From Populus alba (lineage: Eukaryota > Streptophyta > Magnoliopsida > Malpighiales > Salicaceae): DNA of 64,000 bases. The position numbers and the translations under genes were made by a program. This document shows, in pieces, positions 3,891 to 44,482 of this stretch. Every line of letters starts with the position of its first letter. Position 1 is the stretch's first letter. The notes below the pieces were generated by a model. The model saw only the letters and a list, made by a program, of their open reading frames with translations. It was not told where the DNA came from and did no database searches. The stretch is from assembly GCF_005239225.2 (NCBI RefSeq), contig NC_133299.1:6514967-6578966 (forward strand), given 5' to 3'.

Positions 3891-4810
3891 AAGCCATTCT
3901 CCTCAATGAGAAGAGTTGCAAAATTCTGGGCTCTAATCTCACCTCTAGTGCCTGAAAGTCAAAAGAAAAAAAGAGGTAACGTGTTGCAAGTATGGCATAA
4001 GGAATAGGGGCAACAAGCTCAATTCTTGCTACCAATTATTCTTGTACGCTTAATTAATTAGCTGATGTCATACAAGTGTATATTAACAAATAATTAATTT
4101 ATGAAATAATTAATAGTTTTCACACATTTACTTTGTCTGCCCAAGTCGTCTTCCCGGATCAGGATCACCGGTCAAACTCTTATTACAAAACAATCTTTGT
4201 TTACAAGGTTCAACAATATCAACGGTGGAGATTCGATGAGTTGGAGAAGACGTGCACGGATGAGTTGCTGATGATTGCTTCTTCGGATGGGTGTTAGTAC
4301 GTGATTGGATGATGACGTGATACGCACGCAGTATCAGCATCCTTTACAAGCGACAAAAAAATCCATTGTGAAATCATTTATTTTTTTGAATATATAAGCT
4401 ATCGAGAGATATCCACGCAGAGATGTGGAGCGTCCCAAACACGGTCCATTTGAAAGGGATAGAAGTGGTGCTGTCAAAGATTTTGACATTTCGGCGAGTA
4501 CAAGCTTGTGCACGGGAGTCACAGATGATCCTCCCAATAACGTGACTATCACACTGAACGTAGCAGAGCACAGGATCTTCTGTGTGAAAGTGATTTTCTA
4601 ATACATGAGAATGCCCTCGAAATTCCAGAGTTTTTTTTTTTTAAAAACAAAAAAACAAAATCAACACAATAACAACAACAACAACTAAATTTAAAAAAAT
4701 AACACAATTTAGTGAGTTGCATGTTAAATTTTGAATCAAATACTCCTTTATAGCATCCTAACACCATCCAAATATTGGGATGATTTTGATTTGATGAGCG
4801 CCATATTCTC
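3891..4810. other. Intergenic stretch with a GC-richer core (about 4130-4600)
   Basis: The core is GC-richer and low in simple repeats. Read on the minus strand it holds ACGT-core elements (ATCACGTCA, ATCACGTAC) and a TATATATTC, which is compatible with a host promoter. Three short overlapping minus-strand frames at 4128-4815 have no recognisable domain. No exon or intron pair could be supported. Confidence 0.25.
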
Positions 4811-7100
4811 CCCACAAGTTAGGATGATTTTAGTACAGGTCCAACCATAAGTTAAGGGGATTTTTAGATATAGTTAAATGATATGCTTTAATATTATGAG
4901 ACTTATAAATTTAGTGTAAGTTAAATTAAATTACAATGTTATGTTAATTATGAATTAAGAGTAATTATGAATTATGAATTTTGATGAATTGTGAATTAAA
5001 AAGTGTGTTAAATTGTGAATTGTGTTGAGTATTGAATTGTTGGGCTATTTTTTCATAGCAGGAAGTTAAGAGACTGGTACAACAACCCAGTTGTATTTTT
5101 TTATTATAAGCTTTATGGTGCTTCTCATATTTTGTATATACTCTTTGGGGTATGTTAATCCATCATAATTATCTAGGCTAGATTTTGCAAGGATATAATC
5201 TTTAAAAAGAAAAGCGTGTAATATTCTATGATAAGGTAGAGTTTCTTCTAGTTGATAGGGATTGTGCCTATTCTCAAGAACTCATAGAGTTATTAATCTA
5301 TTTTCATGTTGAAGTCTTTTTTTTTTTAAGAAGTGTTTGAGTTAGATACAGATGGAGATCGATGGATATAACTAAATATTCATTTAGAGCATCCAATATG
5401 GAAACACTTTCTATGGTGAGTGCAACTCGAGCTAAGGTGATTTTAGTCTTAACACTCTACAAGTGTCACATTTTGTCCACAAGTTGGGATGATTTTGGTG
5501 CAGGCCCATCCATAAGCTAAGAGGATTCTTAGATGTAGTAAAATGATATGCTTTAATGTTATGGGACTTATGAATTTAGTTTAAGTTAAATTTATGTTAA
5601 TTATGAATTGAGCTTAATTATAAATTATGAATTTTGATGAATTGTGAATTAAAAAGGGTGTTGAATTGTGAATTGTGTTGAGTATTGAATTGTTGGATTG
5701 TTTTTTCATGGCAAAGAATTGTCTAGGCTAGATTTTAAGAAGATATAATCTTTGGAAGGATAAGTGTGCAATATTCTATGATAATGTAAAGATTCTTCTA
5801 GTTGATGGGGATTGTATTTATTCTCAAGAATCATAGAGTTACTAATCTATTTTCATGTTTAGATATTTTTTTTAAGAAGTGTTTGAGTTAGATTCAGATG
5901 GAGATCGATGAATATAACTAGATATTTATTTAAAGCATCCAATATGGGAACACTTTGTATGGTGAGTGCAACTTGAGCTGGGGTGATTTTAGTTTTGACA
6001 CCTCTAAAAACGTTACATTTTGTCCACAAGTTGGGATGATTTTAGTGCAAGCTCGTTCATAAGCTAAGGAGATTTTTAGATGTAGTTAAATGATATGCTT
6101 AAATGTCATGGGACTTATGAATTTAGTCTAAGTTAAATTAAATTACAATGTTATGTTAATTATGAATTGAGCTTAATTATAAATTGTGAATTTTGATGAA
6201 TTGTGAATTAAAAAGGGTGTTAATTGTGAATTGTGTTAAGTATTGAATTGTTGGATTGTTTTTTCATGGCAAGGAATTGTCTAGGCTAGATTTTACGAAG
6301 TATAATATTTGGAAAGAGAAGTGTGAAATATTCTATGATAAGGTAAAGATTCTTCTAGTTGATGGAGATTGTACTTATTCTTAAGAATACATAGAGTTAT
6401 TAATCTATTTTCATGTTTAGATATTTTTTTTTAAATGTTTGAGTTAGATTCAGATGGAGATCGATGGATATAATTGGATCTTTAATTAGAGCATCCAATA
6501 GGGGAACACTTTTTATAGTGAGTGCAACTCGAGTTGGGGTGATTTTAGTTTTGACACCTTTAAGAGCGCTACATTTTATCAAGAAGTTGAGATGATTTTG
6601 GTGTAGGCCTGTCCATAAACTAGGGGGATTTTTAGATGTAGTTAAATGATATGCTTTAATATTATAGGACTTATGAATTTAGTTTAAGTTAAATTAAATT
6701 ACAATGTTATGTTAATTATGAATTGAGCTTAATTATGAATTGTGAATTTTGATGAATTGTGAATTAAAAAGTGCTAAATTGTGAATTGTGTTTAGTATTG
6801 AATTGTTGGGTTGTTTTTTCATGGAAATAAATTGTCTAGGCTAGATTTTACAAAGATATAATCTTTGAAAAGAGAAATGTGCAATATTTTATGATGAGGT
6901 AGAAATTCTTCTAGTTGATGGGGATTGTACTTATTCTCGAGAACTCATAGAGTTATTAATCTATTTTCATGTTTAGGTCTTTTTTTTTTTGTTGAAGAAG
7001 TGTATGAGTTAGATTTAGAGGAGATTGATGGATATAGCTGGATCTTTATTTAGAGCATCCAATTTAAGAACACTTTTTATGATGAGTGCAACTCATTTTG
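4811..7100. repeat. Tandem array of about 550-bp units, four copies
   Basis: The landmark CCACAAGTTGGGATGATTTT recurs at about 4811, 5477, 6024 and 6579, giving spacings of 666, 547 and 555 bp; the last unit decays near 7100. Each unit carries the same ordered landmarks: 'aaatgatatgctttaatgt', a block of repeated 'gaattgtgaatt', 'ttgtctaggctagatttta', 'attcttctagttgatgggga', and 'gttagattcagatggagatc'. The first unit has about 110 extra bases around 5060-5165. Units look roughly 85-90 percent alike. Short minus-strand frames of about 60 codons recur in the units but carry stops. I do not recognise the family; it could be a small satellite or tandem duplicates of a retroelement segment. Confidence 0.8.
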
Positions 7101-16515: not shown

Positions 16516-17112
16516 TTTAACCCATTTAAAATAAGCATGTTTGTAATCTCTACTTATCTGTTAGTTTTTTGGGTGGGACATAAAGAAGAATGCATGTTCA
16601 ATCTAGAGTTTCTAACACTGTTTATTTTTCTATTGTCAAATCTAGTACCATTGTTAGTGATCAAAACCTTGGGAAATCCAAACCAACAAATAATATTCTT
16701 CCTTAAAAATAAAATAACTTTGTTCATTGTTATCTAAGCTAGGGCTTTGGCCTCAACCCATATAATAAAGGAAATCCTCTTACAATTAAGTAAGTAAATG
16801 GAAAGAATGAAAACAAAAAAAATCACATATGAAATAAGGAGAAGCTTAATAAATCTTTAGAAAAGGGTTTTTTCTTTTATAGAAGTTTTATGGGTGGTTT
16901 TATAAGCCCATATGATTTTGTCAAGAAGTTTAGCCCATTCTCCTTTAACTCTTTTCTTCTTTTTATGTTTCTTTAACCCATTTCAATTAAGCATGCTTGC
17001 AAGCTTTAATTGTCCATTAGTTTTTTTGGGTGGGACACAAAGAACAAATTATGTTTAATCTGAAGTTTCTAACACTGTATATTTTTCTATTGTCAAACCT
17101 AATACCATTGTA
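16516..17112 (-). pseudogene. Ty3/gypsy integrase core, internally duplicated
   Basis: On the minus strand, 16,940-16,516 reads through stops as '..IIWVEAKALA', 'NKVILFLRKNII', 'FGFPKVLITNNGTRFDNRK' and 'CPTQKTNR', matching the retroviral integrase core of Tat elements around the second catalytic Asp (here changed: ITDNG to ITNNG). A second, diverged copy of the GTRFDN..PTQKT block lies at 16,974-17,112, directly after RNase H. Repeat order on the minus strand is B-A-B-(insertion)-A, that is, a tandem duplication of a segment of about 450 bp. The integrase would join element ends into chromosomal DNA; this one cannot function. Confidence 0.7.
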
Positions 17113-17578: not shown

Positions 17579-17583
17579 AGCAT
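17579..17583. other. Target-site duplication AGCAT, left copy
   Basis: AGCAT directly precedes the TGTTG start of the 5' LTR and is repeated immediately after the 3' LTR at 28,592-28,596. Five base pairs is the usual size for LTR retrotransposons. Confidence 0.9.
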
Positions 17584-17934
17584 TGTTGCTACCCAATTTT
17601 TGACCCATGTTTTTGATATATTTTCAAAAAAATCCAAAAAATAGAGAAAAACAAAGAAAATAAAAAAAAAATATGTTTTTTTAATATATTTTCGTAATTT
17701 TAGCATTTTCAACGTCGTCTAAAAAAGAATTTAAATTTTTAAGGGTCTTTCGAATGCGTTCGACTTTTCACGCGTCATCTTTTAAATCATTGATTTTCCG
17801 CATTTGAGTCGACGTTGATATTGCTCGTTTTTTTTTTTAAAAATACAAAAAAAAAAAAAAACAACAAGAAAAATCAAATTTTACAAAAAAAAGAAAGTTG
17901 ACCAATTTTTGAAAACTTGGCAATATTTTTTGCC

Positions 17935-17942
17935 TATAAATA
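17935..17942 (+). promoter_or_regulatory. Probable TATA box of the 5' LTR promoter
   Basis: TATAAATA in the context 'tttgcctataaatactgg', unique in the upstream LTR. Transcription would start about 30 bp downstream, defining U3 as roughly the first 380 bp and leaving an unusually long R-U5. The same box occurs in the 3' LTR at 26,722. Confidence 0.65.
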
Positions 17943-19039
17943 CTGGTCTTAAACTCACATTTAAGGGGGTTTTTCATTTTTTGCAAGGGGGTTAATTTTG
18001 GAAACACCAGAAAAATAAAAAAAAAAAAAAAAAACCTAAAACTATCTTCTCCCCCCATTTTTTTTCAAACAGCCGCTGGCCCCCCCTGGTCCAAGACCGT
18101 TATTTTTCCAGCTGAAAATCAGCAACTCAGGCCCCACCCCCTTGGTAATTAATTTTTTCCTCTCTTTCCCCTGATAAAAAGCCAGCCACACACTCTCCCT
18201 GGGAAGAAGAAAAAAAAAAAACGAAGGCACCCCCCCGGTGGATTTCATTTTTTTCTCCGGGCAGCCACCATCAGAAAATCAAGGCAGCCGCCCCCGCCCT
18301 TGACATTTTTGTTTTTCTTTCAACACCGGAACCAGCCCCCTTCCCCGGTTTGAAATTTTTTTTTTTTTACTCCCACAACCTCCTGATTTTCAGCTCAATC
18401 TCAGCCGGTTTTTCCCCCCATCTTCTTCCCCTTCAACCAAAATTCAAGGCCTGCACAGGGAAGCCACAAAAATCCTCTCCCTTCTCCTTCAAAACCGAAC
18501 AGCCCCCTCCCCGTTTTCATTTTCTTTTCTTCCCCAAACCAGCACCACCCACAACACCGATCGACCTCTCCCTTTCCCCAAGACTAGCAGCTTCATTTTC
18601 CTTTCCAGCAACACGCCGAACACTCCCCTCTTTCGGCCATTCCTTCTTCCCAGCTCTCATCGCCGGACACGGCGACGCCTCCTCCAACAAGCAACACGCC
18701 GGACAGAAGCCAGAGCAGTTCCCCTTCGCTGTACCATCTCGCCGTTTGCATCGCCATCTTCCCCGACCTCTCCTCTCCGTCCAGCCTCCGACAGCAGCAG
18801 CGACCACCACAGCAAACCCCAGCAGCGCCGTCCACAGATCGGCAGCCACCACCACAGACCAGCCACAACTCCGCCGTCCGAAGATCCAGCAACCAGCAGA
18901 GGAACGAAGACAGAGGCGAGATCGATCTGAAGAAGGAAAAGAACCGATCTGTTTCTGCAGATCAAAAAGAAGCAGATCTGTAACGGGAAGAAAAATAAAA
19001 ACCGATTGCTGTTTGTGAGTTTTTTTTGTTGTTGCAGGT

Positions 19040-19170
19040 GGCGGTGATCTTCACCGCCGGCGAGGAAAGGAAGAGGAGAAGGAGCCGCTCCAGCCCCCCT
19101 CTGTTTTTCAGGTTTCCATCGGCGGGTTCACGCGCCGCCAGTGACGGTGGCGCGTGGGAAGACGCGCCAC
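19040..19170 (+). other. Two GC-rich perfect hairpins in the LTR
   Basis: Hairpin 1 is GGCGGTGA-TCT-TCACCGCC at 19,040-19,058. Hairpin 2 is GTGGCGCGT-GGGAAG-ACGCGCCAC at 19,147-19,170. Both are intact in the 3' LTR (hairpin 1 at 27,823-27,841). They would lie in the transcribed leader, where such structures can act in packaging, dimerisation or translation control; the role here is unknown. Confidence 0.75.
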
Positions 19171-19807
19171 CACTGCTCCGAACACTGTTCCTGCGTATTC
19201 CAGAAGCCTATGGATGTTTACGGACTATTTCTGTAAATTTTAAATTAATTAATGTAATTTTTGTTCATTTGTTTGGAATTTAGATTGTATAAATGTGATA
19301 AAAAAAAAAATAATAATAATAAAAAAGTTGTGTGTGTTTGTTTTTATTTATTTATTTATGTTATTGAAGTATAAAAATAAAAAAAAACATAAAAAGAATT
19401 ATTTATAAATTTAAATATGGTTAAATATCTCAAGGACAAATAAAATCAAGTTGTATTTTCCATGAAAATGTAAGAACAAGTTTTTACATATATTCGGGGA
19501 TTTAATGACTGATTTATTCAAGCCTTAGAATTTAATTAATATTTTAAATTTTCAAACCACATTAGAACACAAAGCAGCTTACCTCAGGTAGGGTGTGTTA
19601 GGGGTGCTAATACCTTCCCTAGCCACAACCAGTCCCTTACCCGCGATCTCTGACAAGACCAGTACATCAGGTTTCCTAGTAGCCCGAAATCAATTACTAG
19701 GTGGCGACTCCAACGAATCAAATTCAAGCAAATGCAATAAACGAGATTTAAATCGCCAGCCGATGCCGCGCGCGCGCCTGGAGGATTTTTTTTGGGGTGC
19801 GACAGGA

Positions 19808-19825
19808 TGGCGACTCCACTGGGGA
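19808..19825 (+). other. Primer binding site of the 11-kb element
   Basis: TGGCGACTCCACTGGGGA begins three bases after the LTR end. Its 5' TGG pairs with the CCA end of a tRNA. From memory this sequence class is typical of Ogre/Tat elements and is assigned to tRNA-Arg; I could not check it against tRNA sequences. Confidence 0.85.
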
Positions 19826-20839
19826 AGGTATTGTTTTCAACTTTATCGGACTAAGCTTTGTGTTTTGATGTGTTCAATTTTATTTTTTTCTGTTGTGCTT
19901 TGTTTTATTTATTTGTGTTTTATTCATGCATTGTATATAATTCTCTCATGCATCACAAGTTTTAATTTTTGTTAAGCACACACCTGCTTTAAGTTAGGTG
20001 GGGGACTAGCAGCTTACCTTATGACTTGAGTCAAGGTTGAAGTTTGTGTAAACCCCAACTCTTCGTTGAGTGCTTAGACTGGTAATAGTTGGACACGTGC
20101 CAACCAATTACCTGCTGGGCCCCTATATTGCCTTTACGAAGGCGATCACTGGGACAACAAGAGACCCTTTTAGAAACCAAGTAGCAAACCTACCTTGTCT
20201 CCCGTAAAATGAATAGAGCCTGTCTTTAGGATGTATGTGCTATCGTTGTTTGCATCTGGGCAAAATCACGATTCTTGTTCCATCATACAAGAGTTACGAC
20301 CATATTGTCACCTCTCGAAGGGCGAGTTGATCATATAGATTACATATTCATACATTTATCATGCATGTACCGGTTTGAAAAATAGGTTCCCCCGCACAAG
20401 CTGTGCTGCAAGTGATTGAAGAAAGGATGAAAGTGAAGAAATGTGTCAGATAGAGGCTCATTATCAGATTAAGGTTGAGAGCATTGAAGGTGAAGTAGCT
20501 AGACTCAGATATGCTCGAACAAGTGTTGAGCATCAAATGGAAAGAGAATGTCTGCACAGTCTTCTGTGGGAACACTGCTTGTCCACGTCCAATTGAAGCT
20601 GCCTCTCCTTTTCAGTCATGAACAACAGCAGCAATGCCTTCAGTCATCAACTAATGACAACCCTGTTTCTTGTCCAGTTGCACTGTTAAGTGTTCATCGC
20701 CTCCACATCATCTAATGGAACCAAACGACTACTAGCCTCCTGTTCATGGTGCATTAGTCTGTTTTGAAGTTACCCCGATTATGAGCTCAATTCCAGCTCA
20801 GCAGCAGAAGATGGTCTAAAAAAACCATGATTAAACACT

Positions 20840-21260
20840 GAACTTCAATGTGGCAGAGCTCTCTCTACAAAAATCAATTTATGGCTTTGCAAATTGGGAA
20901 TGCAAGAGGGGATTTATAAGTTGCATATGCTACAAATATTTTTCTCATCAATTTCAGCACGAAGACATCTTAGTAGGTTGAAGAGCCAGACCTGGTCTGG
21001 AAAATATGAGCAGACATCAAACTTCAACGTAGCAGAGCTCTCTCGGCAGGAATCTGTTTGTGGATCCGCAAGTGGGAAATCCAAGAAGGAATACAGTAGT
21101 TTCAAATCATCTATGATTTTCCTCCAACAATGTCGGCATTAAAACTCAAAAGTAGAGAGAAGAGACATGCCTAGACTAAAAAAAACATGAAGGATACTGA
21201 AACTTCAATAGAGCAGGACTTCCTCTATAGGTGTTTGTTTGCTGCATTGTCAGTGAGAAA
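20840..21260 (+). repeat. Three diverged copies of a block of about 170 bp in the element interior
   Basis: 'aacttcaatgtggcagagct' (20,841), 'aacttcaacgtagcagagct' (21,020) and 'aacttcaatagagcaggact' (21,201) each start a stretch continuing with a 'ctct..gg..tctgtttgt' segment, 'gcaagtgggaaatccaaga' and 'agggga'-like sequence. This is tandem structure inside the non-coding interior. Confidence 0.65.
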
Positions 21261-23879
21261 TCGAAGAGGGGACAAATGAGTTTTATATTCATTAGGTGCT
21301 TCTCCCATAAAAGAGATAAGGCATGATTCCACACGTCGGTAGTGGCGATAATACAAGTTTCTGGGTGCTGCCAAGATTACCAAGCTGTTGGAAAGTTTTC
21401 TAACAATCCGCAACCAACCACAACAACATTGGAAGATTGAAATGATGTTGTGAGGATTTGCCGAAGAATTGAACAAGCTATGAAGAGAGAAAAGAGTGAT
21501 GGTTCTGTCAAGGATTCTAGAACAATGATGAGAGGTGAATCAAGAGATGACTTCGACGGTGTGAACCCTTAATTGTGGGGTATAGCCAGGTCTCACGGTA
21601 GCATCAATTGCTCAAATGTATTTGCCAAGATGGGACATTCCTCTGCCGTTTAAGTTTGTCGACCAGCATCTGCCAGATTCCAGAATTTTGCTTGACTCCG
21701 ACAAATCCCATGCAACCACCAATTTCTAGTTGGTATAATCCAGAAAAGAGATGTGATGTCATGGTGGGGTCCTCAACCATTTCAAGTGAACAGTTTCAAG
21801 AATTGCAAGAATTGAGTCTGAAAGTTGGTGAGCAAGAGACAAGTGGAGTCGGTGAAGAAGGGTGTCATTGGCTATATTGTCCCCCGAACATTTTCAGAAT
21901 GACATGTTGATCGAAAGTGCTTGGCAAAACACAAATATTTCCAGAAAAGCTGATTCAAGAATGGTGATGAACAGTCAATCATATTGTTTTGGAATTCTGC
22001 ATTTTGTTTTGGGATCACATCTCATCCTTCAACGAAACATGCCTTGCTTTTATCTTTTTGTTGTTTTGAAATCAACAGATGTTTAACATTTTATTCTGAC
22101 AAAATATTTTGATCCAACTCCAACATGCGATAAAGGTTAATCAATTTGGAAGATTAAAAGTGTTTTGATTGCAGAAATGACTCGATTCTTGTTTGAAATG
22201 ACATGAGGTGACTAAACAATTTTGAACTCATACCTCCTGAAACTGAACCACACACCATATAGCTAAGTTTTAACAGTATGCATAATGACATGTAGTGGAT
22301 TCGGTAGTTATGGACTCGTGAATCATGATTCTTACAAGTCCCAATCATTACACTGGATGAGGTCAAAATTTATCGGTTCTAACCGACCTTGCTTGAAATG
22401 AGAAAAGGCCATCTTTGATATTCCCTTCACTTTCTAAAGATTATATCCCTTGTAGTCCCATTTTAAGCTGGATAAAATATCTTTTCATGAAAACCCTGAC
22501 TAGGATCACACCCCACACTGGGGGCAAATGAGAAATATTTTGGAGACACGGATAAAATCAATGGATCAAAGAAAAGCTTAGAACAAAAGTCCAATGTTTG
22601 AGAAAGGGCTAGAAGAAGAAAATCCATAGATTGAGGGTCATCCAAGAAAAACTTTAAGGAAGGCTATGCAAAAAAATGGAAAGGAAATGAAAAGAAAATG
22701 CCTACCAATTCTAAGAGAGGCAAGACAACTTTCAAATGAGAAAAGACAATAAATGCCAAAAGACAACACTAGAAAAATCGATGCTTCATATCTTTTGGTG
22801 TGTCTAGGATAAAGCCTCTAATGTCTTCAAAAAATTTTAGATTGGTTATTCATCAAAGAAAAAGTTGGATTTGCATTATGACCTATGTTAAGAAAATTCT
22901 GATATTTGAGATTAACAAGGTTATATGTCACTTTCTCTACAATGACGACAAGAGAAAGATAATCGATGAATAGTTAATGTTGATCCTAAGTCGTTGAAAC
23001 CCTCAAACACCTTTTGAGCCTTTGAAATTCTTTTCTTTCATAGCCACGAACCATAGCCTGCATTACGTGCTTTTAAAAGCCCTTTTTAATCAAGCAAGCA
23101 ATCTGAACCGATAAATGGCGCTCTCAAAACTTAAAGAGCTTTTCCATAAGGGTCGTGACTTCATAAATTAAGCTACTGGTTATTATGCATGCTGATAAAA
23201 TAAATGCTAAGAAAAGAAACAACTTTTCTTGATAAAGCCTCAGCATCTTGTTTTTGAAATTCATAAAAATGTCACCTCATCACAGACCATCAAATGATAT
23301 ACCCAATATCAAGGATTCAAATTGATACAAAGAACCATGGAAAAAGCCATTTTAATCCTACAACGGGTCGATTTCTGTTTTCAAAATACAAGACAATCAA
23401 AAGACTGTGTATTTCGAATAACGTGTGTTGGGTCTTTGATCAAAAAGCTTGATTTTCAAAAGATTTCCAAAAAAGGACATCTCTGATTTCATTTCAACAA
23501 ACTAGACTTTGAATAGACATGATCTTTGAAATATGAGAGTTGATTCCAGAACAAGGAAGATTATCAAACACAGAAGAACATTGATTGAGTATGCAAAATC
23601 GTTGATAGAAATGACATTGAAGTCCTCGACACTCCTTGAAAAGTTGAGCAGCTGGGGGCAATACAGTGAACCTTAAGAAGGAAAACAAACAGTATCCAGA
23701 TCAACTGGGGGCAAAGAAAGAATCACATGATGAGTCATCAAAGTCCATCAAAGTCATTCCTGGCATTCACAAAAGCCATTTGGTTGTAAACAGAAGAATG
23801 AGCATGTTCAGATCAACTAGGGGCAATGTTGTTCAAAGACAATCCATGATTTAGTGAACTTCAGCAGCAATTGATGATC

Positions 23880-24150
23880 AACACTGCACTTGAAGGATAT
23901 TTTCATATCTTCATCTTGGGTAACCCTCTGAAACATGGCTATGACTCCTGACAGATGTTATCGGGTGAGTGCATTTGAATGAACATCGAACATATGTACA
24001 CCACCAAGACTGAATGTGGAACAATGCTGCACTTGAAGGATAATCTCATATTGTCATCCTTTGAAACATGGTTATCGACAGACGTTACCACGCAACTGCA
24101 TTGAATGAATGTCAGAAAGGCACCCACCCCGAAGACTGACTGTGTGAGAC
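23880..24150 (+). repeat. Two-copy repeat of about 150 bp in the element interior
   Basis: 'cactgcacttgaaggatatt' near 23,881 and 'gctgcacttgaaggataatc' near 24,028 each continue with 'tcat..tgaaacatggctatga' and 'gacagatgttatc', then 'tgcatttgaatgaa'-type sequence and 'aagactga', in the same order. Confidence 0.7.
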
Positions 24151-25117
24151 AATTTGTTTTAAGCCAGATGAGCACTTCACCGCATGAGTATGGGTGATAG
24201 AAGTAGCATCATTGATGAGGCCGAGGCATTTCTTTTCACAATCTGATTAGAAGAGTTGAAAGGAGTCCATGAGAAGAGCACTGAGCATACAACCATGAGC
24301 CTTTGTACTGCAAGCTATGAGATGCATGATTGGATGACTGAATGAGTTCCAAGAAGGCTGATGATAACATGTACTTGAAGAGTACTGTTTCAAATAGAGG
24401 CAAGTTCATGACTGATTAACAATTTTGATGGGTATTGGCATGATGCACACAATCAATCAGAGGATAATTCTCAGAAGAAGCCAGGAGAAAATCCTTCATG
24501 ATGAATCAAGCAGTACCACACTTGGGGGCAGGGTCAAGCTTGATGAACGATGCAAGCAGTAATTGTCGAAGACAGCCCGGGTTGGGCACTACATTTACAG
24601 CTGAGTGGATGGCTTGCACATGAATGAGCCAATGCATCGGAAGAACAAAGAAAGCTTTGGGATGCAAACAAGGGCACCCTATGACGATGGAGCATCAAGG
24701 AGGGGGGGACCTATATTTCAAATCAGGTAAGGATGCATGCATATCATCTAACCTAAAAAAAAAAAAAAAAAAACCATTTGCACATATTTTTGAATTGTTA
24801 CAGGAAAATCCTTAATGATGTCCAGCAAGATGGTGGAAAGAGAAAGAAACATTGTGGTGATGATAATAAAGAATCGGTTTTGATCATGGAATAAAAGGAC
24901 AATGGGATGAACCTTACCATTAGGAAAATCCCAAAGAAATGGAAAGATCAACCTTGCAATCGGGAAGCCTCGAGTTTTCAACCCTTGCAGTCAGGAAACA
25001 CCGAGTTTTTCAAACCCTATGATCGGGAATTATCAGGAAGCACCAAGTTTTCCAACCCTTCTTCTGTCATCCCTTCAGGACTTCGCCAGGTAAGTCCTAT
25101 TTTTCACACTTGTCTTC

Positions 25118-26105
25118 ACATTTTTTCCATCTGGGTAGGTCACCCATCATAATAAGACCGTTTTTCACATTTTTTCCATCCGGGTAGGTCACCCATGACA
25201 ATGAGACCGCAGTTTTCCACATTTTTTCTATCTGGGTAGGTCACCCATTACAATGAGACCGCACTTCACATTCTTTCTATCTGGGTAGGTCGCCCATCAC
25301 AACGAGACCACTTCATCATATTTTTTCCATCTGGGTAGGTCACCCATTACAATGAGACCACACTTCATATTTTTTTCCATCTGGGTAGGTCACCCATTAC
25401 AATGAGACCACACTTCATATTTTTTTCCATCTGGGTAGGTCACCCATTACAATGAGACCACACTTCACATTTTTTCCATCTTGGGTAGGTCACCCATCAC
25501 AATGAGACCATCATCTTTTCTGGGTAGGTCACCCAAAGAATGAGACCATTCTCCATTTTTTTTACCTGGGTAGGTCACCCATAAGAATGAGGCCATTCCT
25601 CCCCCTGGGTAGGTCACCCAAAGAATGAGACCACTCTTCCTTTTACCACTTGGGTAGGTCACCCATCACAATGAGACCACCATTTCCCCTGGGTAGGTCA
25701 CCCAAAGAATGAGACCATTCTCCATTTTTTTTTACCTGGGTAGGTCACCCATAAGAATGAGGTCATTCCTTCCCCTAGGTAGGTCACCCAAAGAATGAGA
25801 CCACTCTTTCCCCTTTCCACTTGGGTAGGTCACCCATCACAATGAGACCACCATTTTTTCTGGGTAGGTCACCCATTAGAATGAGACCATTCTCCATCTT
25901 TTTTTTTTTACCTGGGTAGGTCACCCATAAGAATGAGGCCATTCTTCCCCCTGGGTAGGTCACCCAAAGAATGAGACCACTCTTCCTCCTTTCCATTGGG
26001 GTTCGTCACCCATACAATGAGACCATCATTTTTCTGGGGTTCGTCACCCATACAATGAGACCATCATTTTTCTGGGGTTCGTCACCCATACAATGAGACC
26101 ATTTT
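25118..26105 (+). repeat. 22-unit minisatellite with TGGGTAGGTCACCCA core, in the element's 3'UTR
   Basis: The core TGGGTAGGTCACCCA (arms TGGGT/ACCCA around AGGTC) followed by 'aatgagacca' occurs about 22 times. Starts are near 25,132, 25,182, 25,234, 25,283, 25,333, 25,383, 25,433 and 25,483 (period about 50 bp), then at irregular 31-52 bp spacing. From about 25,510 a higher-order unit of roughly 170 bp, made of four subunit types, appears twice fully and a third time partly. The last three units are a variant with GGGGTTCGTCACCCA at 38-39 bp spacing. The array lies 260 bp upstream of the polypurine tract. Confidence 0.95.
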
Positions 26106-26260
26106 TCACACATTCGTTTGTTTTGATTAAATGAGGTCGCCAGATGGGATCTCATGTAGCTTTGGTTAAAGGGGATCTCCATATGGGATTTCAGGTTGAC
26201 CGAGTTACACACATTCTTTGGTTTTGGTTAAAGGAGGTCGCCAGATGGGATCTCAAGATA
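26105..26260 (+). repeat. Short repeats between minisatellite and polypurine tract
   Basis: 'gaggtcgccagatgggatct' occurs at about 26,134 and 26,236, with a related 'ggggatctccatatgggatt' between them, each linked to 'ttggttaaa'. This is a second, distinct tandem family abutting the 22-unit array. Confidence 0.75.
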
Positions 26261-26360
26261 ATAAAAAAGAAAAAAAAAGTTTTTTTTAAGCAGAAAGACA
26301 AGTTTTTCTTTACAAAGCTTACTATGCAAAACATCGAGGATTTTTGCTTCGTAAGCATTG

Positions 26361-26375
26361 TAAAGAGGGGGCATC
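26361..26375 (+). other. Polypurine tract of the 11-kb element
   Basis: TAAAGAGGGGGCATC sits directly before the TGTTG start of the 3' LTR. It primes plus-strand DNA synthesis. The G-rich tract followed by CATC resembles that of Ogre elements (from memory). Confidence 0.85.
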
Positions 26376-28591
26376 TGTTGCTACCCAATTTTTGACCCAT
26401 GTTTTTGATATATTTTCAAAAAAATCCAAAAAATAGAGAAAAACAAAGAAAATCCAAAAAAAATATGTTTTTTTAATATATTTTCGTAATTTTAGCATTT
26501 TCAACGTCGTCTAAAAAAGAATTTAAATTTTTAAGGGTCTTTCGAATGCGTTCGACTTTTCACGCGTCATCTTTTAAATCATTGATTTTCCGCATTTGAG
26601 TCGACGTTGATATTGCTCGTTTTTTTTTAAAAAATACAAAAAAAAAAAACAACAAGAAAAATCAAATTTTACAAAAAAAGAAAGTTGACCAATTTTTGAA
26701 AACTTGGCAATATTTTTTGCCTATAAATACTGGTCTTAAACTCACATTTAAGGGGGTTTTTCTTTTTGCAAGGGGGTTAATTTTGGAAACACCAGAAAAA
26801 AAAAAAAAAAAAAAAACCTAAAACTATCTTCTCCCCCCATTTTTTTTCAAACAGCCGCTGGCCCCCCCTGGTCCAAGACCGTTATTTTTCCAGCTGAAAA
26901 TCAGCAACTCAGGCCCCACCCCCTTGGTAATTAATTTTTTCCTCTCTTTCCCCTGATAAAAAGCCAGCCACACACTCTCCCTGGGAAGAAGAAAAAAAAA
27001 AACGAAGGCACCCCCCCGGTGGATTTCATTTTTTCTCCCGGGCAGCCACCATCAGAAAATCAAGGCAGCCGCCCCCGCCCTTGACATTTTTGTTTTTCTT
27101 TCAACACCGGAACCAGCCCCCTTCCCCGGTTTGAAATTTATTTTTTTTTTACTCCCACAACCTCCTGATTTTCAGCTCAATCTCAGCCGGTTTTTCCCCC
27201 CATCTTCTTCCCCTTCAACCAAAATTCAAGGCCTGCACAGGGAAGCCACAAAAATCCTCTCCCTTCTCCTTCAAAACCGAACAGCCCCCTCCCCGTTTTC
27301 ATTTTCTTTTCTTCCCCAAACCAGCACCACCCACAACACCGATCGACCTCTCCCTTTCCCCAAGACTAGCAGCTTCATTTTCCTTTCCAGCAACACGCCG
27401 AACACTCCCCTCTTTCGGCCATTCCTTCTTCCCAGCTCTCATCGCCGGACACGGCGACGCCTCCTCCAACAAGCAACACGCCGGACAGAAGCCAGAGCAG
27501 TTCCCCTTCGCTGTACCATCTCGCCGTTTGCATCGCCATCTTCCCCGACCTCTCCTCTCCGTCCAGCCTCCGACAGCAGCAGCGACCACCACAGCAAACC
27601 CCAGCAGCGCCGTCCACAGATCGGCAGCCACCACCACAGACCAGCCACAACTCCGCCGTCCGAAGATCCAGCAACCAGCAGAGGAACGAAGACAGAGGCG
27701 AGATCGATCTGAAGAAGGAAAAGAACCGATCTGTTTCTGCAGATCAAAAAGAAGCAGATCTGTAACGGGAAGAAAAATAAAAACCGATTGCTGTTTGTGA
27801 GTTTTTTTTTGTTGTTGCAGGTGGCGGTGATCTTCACCGCCGGCGAGGAAAGGAAGAGGAGAAGGAGCCGCTCCAGCCCCCCTCTATTTTTCAGGTTTCC
27901 ATCGGCGGGTTCACGCGCCGCCAGTGACGGTGGCGCGTGGGAAGACGCGCCACCACTGCTCCGAACACTGTTCCTGCGTATTCCAGAAGCCTATGGATGT
28001 TTACGGACTATTTCTGTAAATTTTAAATTAATTAATGTAATTTTTGTTCATTTGTTTGGAATTTAGATTGTATAAATGTGATAAAAAAAAAAAATAATAA
28101 TAATAAAAAAGTTTGTGTGTGTGTTTGTTTTTATTTATTTATTTATGTTATTGAAGTATAAAAATAAAAAAAAACATAAAAAGAATTATTTATAAATTTA
28201 AATATGGTTAAATATCTCAAGGACAAATAAAATCAAGTTGTATTTTCCATGAAAATGTAAGAACAAGTTTTTACATATATTCGGGGATTTAATGACTGAT
28301 TTATTCAAGCCTTAGAATTTAATTAATATTTTAAATTTTCAAACCACATTAGAACACAAAGCAGCTTACCTCAGGTAGGGTGTGTTAGGGGTGCTAATAC
28401 CTTCCCTAGCCACAACCAGTCCCTTACCCGCGATCTCTGACAAGACCAGTACATCAGGTTTCCTAGTAGCCCGAAATCAATTACTAGGTGGCGACTCCAA
28501 CGAATCAAATTCAAGCAAATGCAATAAACGAGATTTAAATCGCCAGCCGATGCCGCGCACGCGCCTGGAGGATTTTTTTTGGGGTGCGACA
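26376..28591 (+). repeat. 3' LTR of the 11-kb element
   Basis: 2,216 bp, aligned end to end with the 5' LTR. Differences seen by eye outside pure homopolymers are AA to CC in an A-run near the start, a T to A in the T-run near 27,131, a shifted C in 'tctcccggg', G to A in 'cctctatttttc', and G to A in 'gccgcgcacgcgcc', plus homopolymer and TG-repeat length changes. Near-identity implies recent insertion. Confidence 0.93.
26722..26729 (+). promoter_or_regulatory. TATA box in the 3' LTR
   Basis: TATAAATA at the position equivalent to 17,935 in the 5' LTR. It could drive read-out transcription to the right of the element. Confidence 0.55.
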
Positions 28592-28596
28592 AGCAT
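28592..28596. other. Target-site duplication AGCAT, right copy
   Basis: Directly follows the ...GCGACA end of the 3' LTR and matches 17,579-17,583. Confidence 0.9.
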
Positions 28597-30208: not shown

Positions 30209-32248
30209 TGATGCAACTATATTATTTGATAGTTTTACCTACATTTACCTAGTGTTTTGCCTCTGTTTTATATATAAAATGCCTTGATATTTTTTGTTTT
30301 ATGTTTTGAAGGCACTTTTGGATGAAATATTAAAAAAGAAGTAAATTGAAGATAATTGACAAATTTGATCTCTAATTGATTTTTTATGCAGAACTTGAGC
30401 TCTAGAAGTCGAAAAAAAGTGATTCTAGTGGCATTATAAAGCTAACATCCATACCTTTGTGTACATATATGGCAAGAAACATAAAAAGAAAAAAAGCATG
30501 GAGATCACAACCTTTAAAGTTAAATCTCGTATTTTGCTAATGTTGACCTTCAGCCATTTTGACTTAAATATCTTGAGCTAAAGAAGTTCATTTGATGCAA
30601 ACTCAATTTTGTTGGATTCCTGACTTGAGGGCCTATCAACTTATAAATTTTAGCAAAAAAAGATCTCATATAAGAGAGATATGAGTTTGTTAAGATGAGA
30701 CATGAATTCTGTCAACATACAAGTTTTGTAAAGAAACAAGTCAAAAGTACTTCTCAAAGCATCCAAACCATCATCCAAGTGTTTAGTTCAACAATTTAGC
30801 TCCTATAAGTCAAAGGTCAAAGCTTGAATATTTTATGTAAGGTTATTTCTTATTTTTTAGGAAAATAGTTGCTGAAAGACTTAAATGTAAATTATCTACT
30901 TAGAAAAGTACTATTTTGTAGAAAAAATAAATTTAGCTCAATTTTGTTGGATTCTGTAAATTATGTACTTAGAAAAGTACTATTTTGTAAATTATCTATT
31001 TGATGCAAACTCAATTTTGTTGGATTCCTGACTTGAGGGCCTATCAACTTATAAATTTTAGCAAAAAAAGATCTCATATAAGAGAGATATGAGTTTATTA
31101 AGATGAGACATGAATTCTGTCAACATACAAGTTTTGTAAAGAGACAAGTCAAAAGTACTTCTCAAAGCATCCAAACCATCATCCAAGTGTTTAGTTCAAC
31201 AATTTAGCTCCTATAAGTCAAAGGTCAAAGCTTGAATATTTTATGTACGGTTATTTCTTATTTTTTAGGAAAATTGTTGCTGAAAGACTTAAATGTAAAT
31301 TATCTACTTAGAAAAGTACTATTTTGTAGAAAAAGAGATTGGAGTTTCCTAGGATATAAAAAGAAAAAGAGAAAGGAAAAAAAAGAGGGTCAGCCAAGAG
31401 AGAAAAAACCACCATTTCCTTAAAAAACCCGTAATCATGTTTTCTTCCTTCTTTCTAATTAATTGTTCAGTAGACATGCAAGGCTAAACTCTTTTAATTT
31501 GTTGCAAGGACACGGAAACCTTTGGATTTTAAGAACTATGAGATTTATTTTACCTTTTCTTTTTAGTTTATATGATGAATATGTTTGTTCTACTATGCTT
31601 ATTTTTCCTATGATTATTTTTTTTAACTGCTAGAGCGGACTCTAAGTTATTATTATAGATAATTTATTGCTAAGTTATATCAAAACTGGAGTTGTGGTAT
31701 ATGAACTTGTAAAGCAACTGAGTTTAATAATAATGGCGGATCTATGTTATTAACCTTAAGGAGAACATTCAAATAAATCAAACATGGATGCGGACAATCA
31801 TGTTGTCAAGATTAATCAATTTATTATGTTTTTAATGTTGTCATTCAATTAAATTACTAGTGCGAACACTATAATTATTTGATGGTTAGAGTTAGTTATA
31901 TAGAGGATCTGTTAATTAACTAGTGTTAAGCAAGGATAAATATTCAGAATATAAAATTGATGTATCGTTTCAGTGATCAGTTCTGATTTCTGTAAGTGGA
32001 TGTTTACTTGAAACCAAGGTTTGTTCTCTTGATAATTATTTGATTTTATTTAATTTCACTTGATAGTTTTCTGTTTTTTTTTGCTTTAACCTAGATAACT
32101 TCCAAACCCCCCCAAATTGCATATCATATAGCATAAAAATCCGAACTAGACCTTCCTCTTGAGATCGATCCCTTGCTTGTTCTATACTATCTTACGTGTT
32201 ATGTTTTAAGCTAGGATAATTCATTTGTTTGACCGTGACATCGCAATA
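30209..32248. mobile_element. LTR-like insertion in gag (family shared with 54.7-56.3 kb)
   Basis: The gag reading is broken at 30.2 and 32.25 kb, and TATAC occurs at both junctions (30,204-30,208 and 32,249-32,253), consistent with a target duplication. The stretch starts TGATGCAACTATATTATTTG. It is homologous in inverse orientation to 54,716-56,340, with which it shares 'tgatgcaac', 'ttatatataaaatgccttga', 'ttttgaaggcacttttggat', 'tcattttgtt'-type sequence and 'agatagtata..aagcaa..gatcgatc'. Its right end is less clear. It has no coding capacity and could be a solo LTR. It contains a recent 333-bp duplication. Confidence 0.6.
30594..31334. repeat. Near-identical 333-bp direct duplication
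   Basis: 30,594-30,926 and 31,002-31,334 are direct copies differing at about four sites, for example 'gagtttgttaaga' versus 'gagtttattaaga' and 'tgtaaggtt' versus 'tgtacggtt'. A 75-bp spacer between them is itself made of short copies of the unit ends. The other family member at 54.7-56.3 kb has a single copy, so the duplication arose after dispersal. Confidence 0.9.
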
Positions 32249-40178: not shown

Positions 40179-40531
40179 TATTGAAAGTAAATTGCTTTCT
40201 GTAAATTAGTTGAATCGGTCAACCGCTCAGGATAGAGAAACCAGGTGAAATAAGTTGAAGTGGCCGACCGAATCAGTTGACAAAATACAATTGCTTTTCA
40301 GATTAGGATCTACTTGTATTTATTTAATTCCATGATTGTTTAAGACTTTATGCTTATAAAAGGCTAGTAATTCAATATTATTAACAAAGCATAAAAAGAG
40401 AGAATAACTAAGAGAACTTAAAAAGAAACGCATAATAAAAATATATCTTCCTCTCAATATTCTTTTTGTTCTTGAGTTTTTTGACTTTGCATTACTATTT
40501 TTTATTATCTACCACACCTATCCATTTTCCA
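40179..40531 (+). repeat. 5' LTR of the copia element
   Basis: Aligns with 44,483-44,867: 'ttgaaagtaaa..tttctg', 'cagattaggatct', 'ataaaaggctagtaattcaa', 'tattattaa', 'gagttttttgactttgcatt' and 'ctatcc..cttcca' occur in order. TATAAAAGGC-like promoter sequence ('gcttataaaaggctag') lies near 40,352. Both LTRs contain imperfect inverted 'gttgaccggttgaac'-like motifs. Confidence 0.8.
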
Positions 40532-40536
40532 AAAAG

Positions 40537-40549
40537 TGATATAGAGGTT
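40537..40549 (+). other. Degenerate primer binding site of the copia element
   Basis: TGATATAGAGGTT, a mutated form of TGGTATCAGAGC(T), the initiator-tRNA-Met primer site typical of plant copia elements, lies a few bases after the LTR end. Confidence 0.65.
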
Positions 40550-40565
40550 GTTTTGATTGTTTATC

Positions 40566-41300
40566 ATGGCCAATCCAAACTTTTCACTTTAATGTCCTAG
40601 GTTGACAAATGACAACTATGAAACTTGGTGTATTCATGTAAAAGCTTGGCTAGATTCCCAAGATATATAAGGGATAATTAAAAGAGGCTTTGAAAAGCAT
40701 ATAGATAAAGTAACATTGATTTCATCCAAAATAGAGGTTGTGGAAAATGCACGATGGAAGGATCAACAATGTTTGATGATACTACTTTTAAGCTAGTGGT
40801 AAACACAACCACCACCAAACAAGCATTAAAGGTTTTGCAACAATCAAACCAAGGTGCTGACAATATAAGACAGATACATCTAAAAAAGCTATCTGGTGAC
40901 TTTGAAAAGTTACATATGTTTAAATCGAAGAATATTTTAGAATACTTTGCAAGAGAATTAGCCATATACAATCAAATGAAGAGATATGAGGAGAAGATAG
41001 AAGAGACATATGTGGTAGAGAAGATAATATGCTCGTTGCAAAAAAAGTTATGTTATATGATGGTTGTGATAGAGGAGTCATAAAATATAGATGTTCTTTT
41101 AATACAAGGTCTTATGGGAAAATTACAAGCTCATGGGGAAAGAGTCAATGAAATTTAAAAAGATGTGGGTGCATAAGCACTTTTTTCAAAGTAAGATGGT
41201 TCTAAATATTCCTACAGGGGTAGAAGACTTGGGCAAGGAAGAGGAAGATGAGGTAGATACATACTTAGAAGAGAAGGCCTTAACAGCCTTAACAGGTTCA
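40566..41300 (+). pseudogene. Copia gag (UBN2 domain), disrupted
   Basis: Starts 'MANPNFSL', stop, then 'PRLTNDNYETWCIHVKAWL', matching the copia gag start. The longest open part (40,754-41,083) contains 'QALKVLQQSNQGADNIRQIH' and 'LKKLSGDFEKLHM', then 'YFARELAIYNQMKRYEEKI' and 'KIICSLQKKL', the UBN2 pattern 'LQ..Y.G...V....L..L...FE.L.M..ESI.EY......I.N.....GE...D..VV.K.L.SL...'. Further similarity ('LQAHGERVNE') continues to about 41.3 kb. No intact reading frame spans it. Confidence 0.8.
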
Positions 41301-41379
41301 CCGGTCGATCGCATGAAGCAAATCGTCTTGTTACGAAAAAAGAAAAAAAAGGCAACCTATTACTAGTCCATCTTGAACA

Positions 41380-42480
41380 AAAGCAAGCTATGGAAAACAT
41401 GTGGTATCTAGATAATGGTGCCAGCAATCACATGTATGGAGATAAAGACAAGTTTATGGAACTTGATGAATCAATTAAAGGTAATGTCACATTTGCAAAT
41501 CATTCGAAGGTTTCCATCAAAGGAAAATGTATAATTCTTATAAAAATTAAAAAATGAAAGTCATCAATTTATTGGTGATGTCTATTATATCCTTACTATA
41601 AAAAATCAATATATCAAGTTTTGGACAATTGTTGGAGAAGGGTTATGAGAATAAGATGAAAGATTGTACTTTGACATTATTTAATACTCATAGAGCTATG
41701 ATTGTAAAGGTAACCATGAAAAAGAACATTATGTTTTTGCTAAACATAGAGACAAATGTGCCTAAACACTTAAAGACATGTGTAAAATATGAGACTTGGA
41801 TTTTGCATATGAGACTTGGGCATGTAAACTTTGATAGCTTGAAGATGATAACATAAAAAGAGATGTTAAAGGGTTTACCATCCATTATATATCCAAATCA
41901 ATTGTGTGAAGGATGTTTAGTGGGTAAACAATTTCATAAAAGCTTTTCCAAAGGAGTCTACATAAAAAGAAAGTCAACCTTTACAAGAAATACATGCTGA
42001 TGTTTGTGGTCCTACCAAACCATGTTTGTTTGATAAAAATCTATATTTTCTACTTTTTATTGATGTTTATAGTAAAAAAATTAGGTATACTTATTAAAAG
42101 AAAAGTTTAATATGTTTAGTTATTTCAAAAAGTTTAAGGCACTAGTTGAAAAAGAAAATGAGTATTCTATAAAATCACTTATGATGGATAGGGGGTGATT
42201 TTTTTTTTTCCTAGTGATTTTAATAAGTTTTGTGAAGATCATGATATAAAAAGACTCCTAACAGTGCTTAGATCTTTATAACAAAATAGCATAGTGGAGA
42301 GAAAAAAATAGAAGCACCTCAATATGGTAAGAAATATGCTTAAAACCAAGTAGATGCCTAAAGAGTTTTGGGTCAAAGTTATAAATTGTGCAATGCAATT
42401 GTCAAGTAGGTGTCATGCTAAAGGCTTGAATGACATAACTCCCTAAGAAACATAGAGTGGAAGAAAGCCAAATGTTTTTC
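41380..42480 (+). pseudogene. Copia protease, pre-integrase and integrase region, disrupted
   Basis: 'WYLDNGASNHMYGDKDKF' at about 41,403-41,460 is the protease active-site region (D-S/N-G-A-S-NHM), which cleaves the polyprotein. 'ILHMRLGHVNFDSLKMI' (about 41,800-41,852) is the gag-pre-integrase zinc-binding motif. 'CEGCLVGKQFHKSF' near 41.9 kb completes the HHCC finger. The integrase core follows to about 42.48 kb with stops and a T-run at 42,198-42,211. Confidence 0.8.
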
Positions 42481-42959
42481 ACTTTAGAGGTTTTGAAAGC
42501 ATTGATTATGTGCACGTGGATGATCAAGTAAGGACCAAGCTAAATGACAATAGCAAAATGACAATCTTTGTAGGCTATGACTAAAAGTTCAAAGAATATA
42601 AGCTTTACAACCCCTAATGAAGGAAATATGGTGATTATTAGGGATGTTGAGTATGATAAAGAAGGAGTATGGGATTGAGAGGTAGATGATGTTAAGAAAT
42701 ATGATTTTCTATCGGTTCTTAATAAAAGGGAGGAGAGCTATAAAGATCATCAAGATCAAGCCACATCTCTACAATCCCTAATGGTGTTATCTTTACCTTT
42801 ATCTTATTGTTTTAATGGAAGTGCGAGTAGTGGCAACCTATCAAATCCACCAGAAAGAATAAGAAATCTTAATGAGTTATATGAGGTAACTACTTTTATT
42901 GATGACGATGTACCCTTATAGTGTCACCTTGTTATATGTGATCCTATAGTGTTTGAAGA

Positions 42960-43076
42960 AGTAATAAAAGATGCAAAATAAATAATTTATATGGATAAAA
43001 AGATTGCATTAATTAAAAAGAATGAAACATGGAAATTGGTTCCTAGACTAAGTGGAAAGAATTCAATTAGTGTCAA

Positions 43077-43112
<36 letters not shown>

Positions 43113-43570
43113 AATGCCAAAAAAAAGAGGTAAAGAGATACAAGGCAATGTTAGTGGCAAAAGGCTATAGTAAAAAATATGAGATTGATTATGATGAAGT
43201 ATTTGCTCTAATTTCTAGATTGGAGACTATTCAATTAATCATTGTCACCACTGCCCAATATAGATAGAAAATCTATCAAATAGATGTAAAATCAGTCTTT
43301 CTAAATGGTTTTTTTGAGGATGAGTTCTACATTAAGCAACTTATGAGTTATGAAGTGAAAGAACATAAAAACAAAAGTTTAAAGTTGAATAAAGCCTTAT
43401 ATGAATTGAAACAAGCCCCAAAAGCTTGGTATAGTCACATTGATGACTATTTTTTAAATAATATATTTGTAAAATACCCCTATGAATATGCTAACTAGTA
43501 AAGATAACAGAGAGTGGTGATACTTTTATTGTATGCTTGTATGTGGATGACTTGATCTTTACATGAAATA
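42960..43570 (+). pseudogene. Copia reverse transcriptase, disrupted by a (TA)n expansion
   Basis: 'KNETWKLVPRLSGKNSI' leads into the segment normally reading WVYK.K, where a TA microsatellite now sits. Then come 'VKRYKAMLVAKGYSKKYEID' and 'YDEVFALISRLETI', 'VKSVFLNGFFEDEFYIKQ', 'LNKALYELKQAPKAWYS' and 'CLYVDDLIFT'. The catalytic YVDD is intact, but stops and the microsatellite destroy the frame. RT synthesises the element's DNA. Confidence 0.85.
43078..43109. repeat. (TA)n microsatellite inside the copia RT
   Basis: A TA run of about 32 bp between the codons for KNSISVK and those for ECQKKEVKRYKAML. It appears to have grown from the TAT/GTATAT codons of the conserved WVYK motif. Confidence 0.9.
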
Positions 43571-43684
43571 ATTCGAAGATGTTTAAAGACTTCAAGTAAG
43601 TGATGATCAAGGAGTTTAAGATGAAGGATATTTGTCTTATACTTCTTAGGGATTAAGATAAAAAAAGAAAAAGATGAAATTTTT

Positions 43685-44450
43685 GTGATTCATGAGAAGT
43701 TTGTAAGGGAGGTTCCCAAGAAGTTTAAGATAGAGAATTGCACAAAAGTAAATACTCCGATTGAGTATGGAGTAAAGATGTCAAATAATAATGAAGAAGA
43801 GAAGATAAAGTCTACAACATTCAAAAGCTTAGTTGGGATTTTAAGGTATTTGAAATGCATTTATTCGAACATTTTTTTTAGAGTAGGACTTATAAGTAGA
43901 TTTATGGAGACACCAATTATGACACACTACAAATAATTGAAGTGAATTCTTTGATATATCAAAGGTATTGTTAATTTTAGTTTATTATAATTGCTTTGAA
44001 CTTGTGGTTTATAGTAATAATGATTGAGCTGGAGATATGAATGATAGAAAGAGCACCATGAGTTTTGTTTTTTATATGGGAGACATAACGTTCACATAGA
44101 GTTTAAAAAAGCAATATATAGTCATTTTATTAACATGTGAAGCTGAATATGTAGTTACTACATCATGAGTTTATTATTCCATATGGCTAAAGAGATTATT
44201 AAAGGAATTGTGAATGCCACAAGAGAAGCCTATTTAAATTTATTTGGATAACTCACTAGTCATTGCATTAGTAAAGAATCCAGTATTTCTTGACAGAAGT
44301 AAACATATTGACACAAGATTTCACTACCTATAAGATTGCATTGCAAATAAGAAATTTAAAGTCAAGTATGTGAAGACACAAGACCAAGTCGTGAATATCT
44401 TCACAAAGCCACTCAAATATTATGTTTTTATCAAGATGAGAGATATGTAA
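43685..44450 (+). pseudogene. Copia RT C-terminus and RNase H, disrupted
   Basis: 'CTKVNTPIEYGVKMSNN' and 'TTFKSLVGILRYL' form the RT-connection region. RNase H follows: 'GDMNDRKSTMSFVFYMGD', 'LLTCEAEYV', 'IYLDNSLVIALVKNPVF' and 'DRSKHIDTRFHYL'. Several stops interrupt them. The final 'TKPLKYYVF' near 44.41 kb marks the end of pol just before the purine tract and the 3' LTR. Confidence 0.85.
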
Positions 44451-44482
44451 GGAGTTATAAAAAAATCAAGTTTAAATGGAGA

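Follow-up and report, generated by a model that had tools for sequence, protein, structure and literature searches.

A young, gene-less LTR retrotransposon family of white poplar, probably derived from Tat/Ogre-type Ty3/gypsy elements

Introduction

A 64-kb stretch of the white poplar genome (C16:6514967-6578966 of the 416-Mb Populus alba assembly; hereafter the window) contains, at 17584-28591 on the plus strand, a complete long terminal repeat (LTR) retrotransposon with a multi-kilobase interior in which no intact protein-coding gene was detected. Very probably, it represents a family of the large retrotransposon derivative (LARD) type that descends from Tat/Ogre-type Ty3/gypsy elements, lost pol ahead of its own spread, retains gag in decayed form and would be mobilised by coding Tat/Ogre relatives. 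This assignment, whose core (a non-autonomous family with a Tat/Ogre helper) a preliminary description of the window had already proposed, is supported by the structure of the element, a gene-less interior shared with other copies, a relic of gag, and a coding relative. The element adds a clear new example to a known type of genomic hitch-hiker and does not constitute a new kind of system.

Structure and age of the element

The element is bounded by a 5' LTR of 2,221 bp (17584-19804) and a 3' LTR of 2,216 bp (26376-28591), both on the plus strand with the termini TGTTGC...GCGACA, and is flanked by a target site duplication (TSD), AGCAT, at 17579-17583 on the left and 28592-28596 on the right. 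The 6,571-bp interior (19805-26375) carries a primer binding site (PBS), TGGCGACTCCACTGGGGA, at 19808-19825 and ends in a polypurine tract (PPT), AAAGAGGGGGCATC, at 26362-26375, which abuts the 3' LTR. All of these features, the paired 2.2-kb LTRs with their TG/CA ends, the duplication, the PBS and the PPT, were read directly from the sequence, and their coordinates in the preliminary description proved right. The PBS, which we take to be of the tRNA-Arg type, is the window's single match at three or fewer mismatches (chance expectation 0.01). In the host genome it has 803 exact matches against none for the reversed control, and the PPT-LTR junction pattern has 919 matches, again against none. 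A tRNA scan of the window found no tRNA, PBS scans returned no match in viral contigs and four records in bacterial contigs, estimated at or below chance, and the three matches of an Rfam scan were all sub-threshold.

Compared by BLAST, the two LTRs differ by 5 mismatches and 19-20 gap bases, while the alignment by MAFFT counts 11 substitutions over 2,210 columns, along with 9 indel events (Kimura two-parameter distance, K2P, 0.005), with several of these substitutions and indels adjoining homopolymer shifts. The earlier estimate of about half a dozen substitutions was thus fair. With rates of 2.5e-9 to 1.5e-8 substitutions per site per year, the MAFFT count, obtained from the alignment that had been suggested for dating, places the insertion at about 0.17-1.0 million years ago.

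A family of gene-less copies

A genome query with the first kilobase of the LTR, for which 40 of 1,495 first-look candidates were scored, gave 43 matches, many of them paired about 8.4-8.9 kb apart. Nine loci (copies B-I and K) were picked for this spacing, together with one pair 17.8 kb apart. In all nine, 95-100% of the window interior is covered at 87-91% identity, as calculated from the best BLAST pieces, in which array positions may pair with paralogous units. The genome search with the LTR proposed in the preliminary description has recovered an interior common to every copy picked by spacing. Because the choice by spacing could shape this outcome, seven further loci taken as single LTR matches, with no spacing criterion, provide a fairer test. 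Six of them were readable, while the DNA fetched at C11:2.89 Mb excluded the stretch with the LTR match itself. Nearly the whole interior is present at C1:0.63, C5:2.39, C1:32.9 and C9:10.27 Mb (four of the six), and part of it lies within the stretch fetched at C14:2.44 Mb. The locus at C19:3.18 Mb (L041/L042) is a short divergent relative that has LTR ends, leader and array in common with the family, of which only two small interior blocks align and whose interior holds no open reading frame (ORF) of at least 150 aa. At none of the six readable loci was gag-pol found between the LTRs.

Exact 5-bp TSDs flank copies B, C, E and I, whose LTRs are K2P 0.011, 0.004, 0.002 and 0.011 apart, respectively; hence the gene-less form has inserted repeatedly and recently, in agreement with the earlier claim of a recently active gene-less family. 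Copy F matches in four of five TSD positions (LTR K2P 0.009), and copy D looks composite, since it lacks an exact TSD and its LTRs are 0.138 apart. TSDs and LTR divergence were resolved for these six copies, with G, H and K outside this set; in copy H, another PPT precedes the 5' LTR. Judged from these sequences, the window element belongs to a family and is not the product of a private deletion.

The pair spaced 17.8 kb apart (C19:233-254 kb) was considered as an autonomous copy and rejected, as it lies in a rearranged array of family pieces: the stretch L029-L031 (C19:233100-254000) comprises several LTRs and interior pieces of the family. No prior description of the family was seen in open-access titles and abstract starts, which is weak evidence given that transposable element databases and subscription papers were outside the search, and a literature search by the PBS letters found nothing.

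Coding capacity of the interior

A Pfam search over six frames of 19805-26375, with stops as X, found no family at E<=1; given the open frames of degraded copia fragments at 40709-43936 of the window, this library did recognise them. Gag and pol domains, whose detection by profile would have refuted the preliminary description, were thus not found in the six-frame search that it had called for. Its statement that the interior holds no recognisable gag or pol stands for Pfam profiles and has to be revised for gag, since an eroded gag at 20429-21790 is visible against related gag sequences. Pfam found no reverse transcriptase (RT), RNase H or integrase (INT) in the interior, tblastn with Tat-type polyproteins of plants gave none above control level, and no relic of ORF1 rose above that level. 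Likewise, PF04195 (TRP28) had no Pfam match in the six interior frames.

The Pfam scan covers the window copy, and the coding capacity of the nine other copies was judged by alignment and ORF integrity. None of the 23 ORFs of at least 60 aa within 19805-25112 is free of stops and frameshifts across all nine copies. Over the N-terminal part of the gag relic (20405-20572, 13 copies, in the relic's frame), 67, 44 and 38 substitutions fall on positions 1, 2 and 3, so that an excess at the third codon position is absent. One ORF, 21602-21907, has 23 database protein matches; the 13 examined share a common block and then continue in differing frames. In our own reading, gene predictions on repeat DNA would be expected to look like this.

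Coding relatives and the eroded gag

On contig C1, PBS places were paired with PPT-LTR junctions, with 47 of the 76 PBS places used giving a pair. The PBS-PPT distances fall at 3.9-5.5 kb (n=17), 6.4-7.2 kb (n=14), 9.9-13.5 kb (n=11) and above 15 kb (n=5). The second of these classes, 14 of the 47 pairs, has the length of the window family, its interior being confirmed by sequence for C1:626-633 kb alone. Across the 11 long pairs, the PPT-LTR junction is identical in eight and differs by one base in three. The long element that was sampled measures 11,514 bp, has the same PBS and a 19-nt PPT-LTR junction identical to that of the window element, and encodes a 924-aa gag-protease frame (Retrotrans_gag, 1.6e-8) as well as RT matches that span most of the RVT_1 profile (6.6e-7 and 1.9e-20). 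The closest relatives of its gag are found in Populus, more distant ones in melon, cacao, legumes and beech, and they include Populus polyproteins with PF13456, RVT_1 and rve. PF13456 presumably corresponds to the extra RNase H of Tat elements. Such an extra RNase H is given as a mark of Tat elements (PMC6317226). Just left of copy G, a fragment of a coding relative was observed (L023:1-138, C1:50707180-50707317; 87% over 46 aa to P0232, E 4e-18).

Measured against the gag of this coding relative and other plant proteins, the plus strand of the interior shows three blocks. The N-terminal block (20429-20634) is matched by aa 18-43 of the coding relative's gag (20429-20506; 54% over 26 aa, E 5.6e-4) and by the Populus gag P0145 in two parts, 20429-20506 and 20530-20634. 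The middle block (21444-21494; E 5.8 and 0.26), in which the coding relative's gag matches 21444-21485 at the former value, is not significant alone and is collinear with the other two. For the C-terminal block (21656-21790), a plant protein search gave E values down to 6.5e-6 (Populus protein P0161), and the coding relative's gag matches 21668-21772 with 34% over 35 aa (E 0.008). Strand and order of all blocks agree with gag, and from first to last they extend over 1,344 bp versus 1,299 in gag. With the coding relative's gag, the best E among 20 shuffled interiors was 0.27, and reversed copies produced no match at E<=0.5 (best 0.96). The N-terminal block recurs in 14 of 14 copies; its E is at most 0.004 in 13 of them and 0.40 in G. 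For the C-terminal block, 13 of the 14 copies give a match at E<=0.5. On the strength of these matches, 20429-21790 is read as an eroded Ogre/Tat-like gag, and the interior as a decayed gag followed by other sequence and a 3' array.

Proposed mobilisation and alternative explanations

In the proposed scenario, an ancestral Tat/Ogre-type Ty3/gypsy element would have undergone gag decay and pol loss before the family spread. RNA of the gene-less element would then be transcribed from its own LTR, and the proteins of coding Tat/Ogre relatives would package, reverse-transcribe and integrate it. The coding class with the same PBS and PPT-LTR junction would be the actual helper.

Several points weigh against this scenario. 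Transcription, packaging and the helper identity of the coding class are inferred from sequence. The spacing of 8.4-8.9 kb by which the nine copies were picked favours similar interiors, and 11 additional LTR places lie outside the set of loci read. The sample of coding elements is one of the 11 long ones on C1, of which 6.1 kb was read; this copy may be inactive, given that two overlapping frames divide its RT between them, and its LTR was compared with that of the window family at the junction only. In the plant protein run, the reversed interior gave three matches at E 0.20-0.47 and the reversed copies one at 0.003, a match of polyprotein P0193 at 23267-23560 (E 0.13) stays at control level, and no source was identified for the interior from about 21.8 to 25.1 kb. 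The preliminary description had assigned the helper role to a Tat/Ogre element elsewhere in the genome and had suggested a search for an autonomous element with the same LTR, PBS and PPT. The same PBS and PPT-LTR junction do occur in a coding element, which upholds part of both ideas; its helper role and the agreement of the LTRs beyond the junction go further than the comparison.

Three other explanations were weighed against mobilisation of a gene-less family by coding Tat/Ogre relatives. The window copy could have inserted as an ordinary Ogre element and lost its gag-pol later, while its coding family persists elsewhere; in Lathyrus, large deletions have given rise to non-autonomous Ogres that lack pol (PMC7004042). 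Yet the other copies read carry the same gene-less interior, four of them with exact TSDs and young LTRs, which leaves such a private deletion a negligible chance; the preliminary description had named this outcome, with pol in the other copies, as one that would speak against it. Alternatively, the interior might encode a fast-evolving or spliced protein missed by profiles, making the family partly autonomous. That the interior aligns across subfamilies and the middle of the LTR does not, and that ORF 21602-21907 has database matches, would fit such a protein. It was nevertheless ruled out as a working candidate and is considered very improbable in view of the disruption of each of the 23 ORFs in at least one copy, the absent third-position excess and the frame-inconsistent database matches.

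Somewhat less remote, though still unlikely, is cross-mobilisation by another coding family instead of the long coding elements, for example a sister family with the LTR start TGTCATAACCC seen at L042:8439 on the minus strand (C19:3192738). The sister family shares the PPT core and has one similar array unit upstream of the PPT, and C1 pairs with a TGTCA start show a tight PBS-PPT distance of 5.2-5.5 kb (7 of 7). However, such a short, uniform interior could itself be gene-less, and the LTR starts differ (TGTCA vs TGTTG). Two further candidates were discarded. The gag-pol at L045 is Athila-like by our own reading and does not match the window LTR; it occupies L045:829-7444 (minus strand, C11), with a lysine-decarboxylase-like (LOG-type) ORF less than 1 kb from its integrase. 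At L046 (C11:2.90 Mb), RT and INT belong to a gypsy pol of another lineage; a related LTR, perhaps a solo LTR, terminates inside this pol.

Mosaic structure and LTR subfamilies

The LTR ends (the first ~350-500 bp and the last 500 bp) align in all copies compared, and the middle is subfamily-specific. In the window copy, this core (18381-19130, plus strand) is 1-3 substitutions from those of B and C in ~745 bp, and no alignment with D-K was obtained over most of its length. At the settings used, at least five mutually non-aligning core types were distinguished (A/B/C, D/E, F, G/H/I, and K). Despite the near-identical LTR core, the window interior is K2P ~0.10 from those of B and C. Within it, a plus-strand segment at 23380-24500 points to an origin in the H/I/K subfamily, with a K2P of 0.014-0.036 to H, I and K, 0.125 to G and 0.18-0.21 to B-F; correspondingly, identities in 200-bp bins over ~23.4-24.5 kb are 90-100% with H, I and K and 70-93% with B-F. 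In the bin at 22605, the window copy is instead 95-97% identical to B, C and D versus 75-84% to the other six. Among 99 sites separating B-E from H, I and K, 91 are of H/I/K type in the window and eight of B-E type; seven of these eight are consecutive (22539-22911), giving five runs, and none of 10,000 permutations had as few.

By these comparisons, the window copy has a mosaic make-up, with parts from different subfamilies. The natural explanation would be copy-choice recombination between co-packaged RNAs, with gene conversion or unequal exchange as an alternative.

Tandem array and candidate RNA signals

A plus-strand tandem array at 25113-26103 (periods of ~50, 85 and 38 bp) contains 18 GGGTAGGTCRCCC units and 3 GGGTTCGTCACCC units. 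The units, 18 plus 3 variants, are palindromic and recur in nine of nine copies counted. Closer to the 5' end, the longest invariant run of the interior, 36 nt at 20514-20549 on the plus strand, is identical in the window and in 13 of 13 other copies. The longest run in 2,000 site shuffles was 31 nt, and none reached 36, in a control that did not model relatedness and rate variation between copies. The coding element, over the 6.1 kb that was read, lacks this block. The leader does not fold better than its shuffles (z 0.49), and an RNA structure scan gave z<=-2.5 in 9 of 94 alignment windows, with mean z values of about -1.05 and -1.13 under column shuffling that ignored dinucleotides.

Our guess is that the 36-nt block would be the best candidate for a cis-acting RNA signal. 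It is tempting, if doubtful, to go further: the start of the decayed gag may have been kept as RNA, with the block just after the N-terminal relic serving as a packaging or dimerisation signal that admits the gene-less RNA to helper particles, and the family might also evolve by template switching within particles, swapping LTR cores and interior segments between subfamilies.

Comparison with known systems

LARDs are defined as LTR elements with a core domain, no protein products, a uniform structure and an assumed trans-complementation (PMC7215508). The poplar family resembles them, for example Sukkula of grasses: the window element has paired LTRs with PBS, PPT and TSD, its multi-kilobase interior is without coding capacity across the family, and the family is multi-copy and structurally uniform, with trans dependence assumed in both cases. 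In contrast to LARDs, it is Tat/Ogre-derived, carries a 3' tandem array and shows a fossil of gag. A conserved RNA structure is also mentioned for LARDs (PMC7215508); for the poplar family, the leader fold is no better than its shuffles and the structure scan suggestive only.

With the Ogre lineage of Tat Ty3/gypsy elements, the family shares a related gag, represented by the relic at 20429-21790, and tandem repeats between the coding region and the 3' LTR. Unlike Ogre elements, its interior yielded no pol, additional RNase H (aRH) or ORF1; neither an RT for a phylogeny of its own nor an aRH was found by Pfam and tblastn of the interior. The lineage is hence not assignable from an RT of its own, and lacking RT, RNase H and INT the family is termed derived from Tat/Ogre, not a coding member. 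Non-autonomous Ogres of Lathyrus likewise combine an array near the GAG region with a missing pol, but there gag is detectable as a domain and the loss of pol is attributed to deletions (PMC7004042), whereas the poplar gag has decayed beyond Pfam detection. Retand elements of the Tat lineage are similar in their long internal region, often with tandem arrays, and in that some clusters are without gag or other domains (PMC11963269). Their LTRs of 315-1,194 bp, given in the same text, compare with 2.2 kb in the poplar element, and an antisense TRP28 ORF between pol and the 3' LTR is reported there for 97% of clusters (PMC11963269), in contrast to the poplar interior without a PF04195 match.

Other features of the window

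Less than 1 kb left of the element, a weak gypsy integrase fragment lies at 16530-16760 on the minus strand (32% over 78 aa, E 2e-5). Among host genes in the window, the clearest one observed is ALMT, an aluminium-activated malate transporter (PF11744), with exon frames at 49299-51726 (plus strand). In a degraded Ty1/copia element at 40323-44838 (plus strand), two 181-nt repeats that are 85% alike enclose gag, Pol_BBD and weak RT fragments, and an ORF with the transposase-associated domain PF13963 at 53740-54381 (minus strand) is probably what remains of a DNA transposon. At 30590-31297 lie two direct repeats of 300 nt, 99% identical and 408 bp apart from start to start. Repeat arrays outside the element were seen at 4791-6943 and 63068-63627, with spacings of ~550 bp and 62 bp, respectively.

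Conclusions

Taken together, one genome holds a ladder with a coding Ogre/Tat-type element at its start and, at its end, a derivative, still young and gene-less, whose gag fossil can be read. Annotation of transposable elements by their domains would label such gene-less copies as unknown. To our knowledge, the cis-requirements for packaging of plant retrotransposons are poorly known. Since the coding element and the gene-less family share the PBS and the PPT-LTR junction, a comparison of their shared parts could narrow these requirements.

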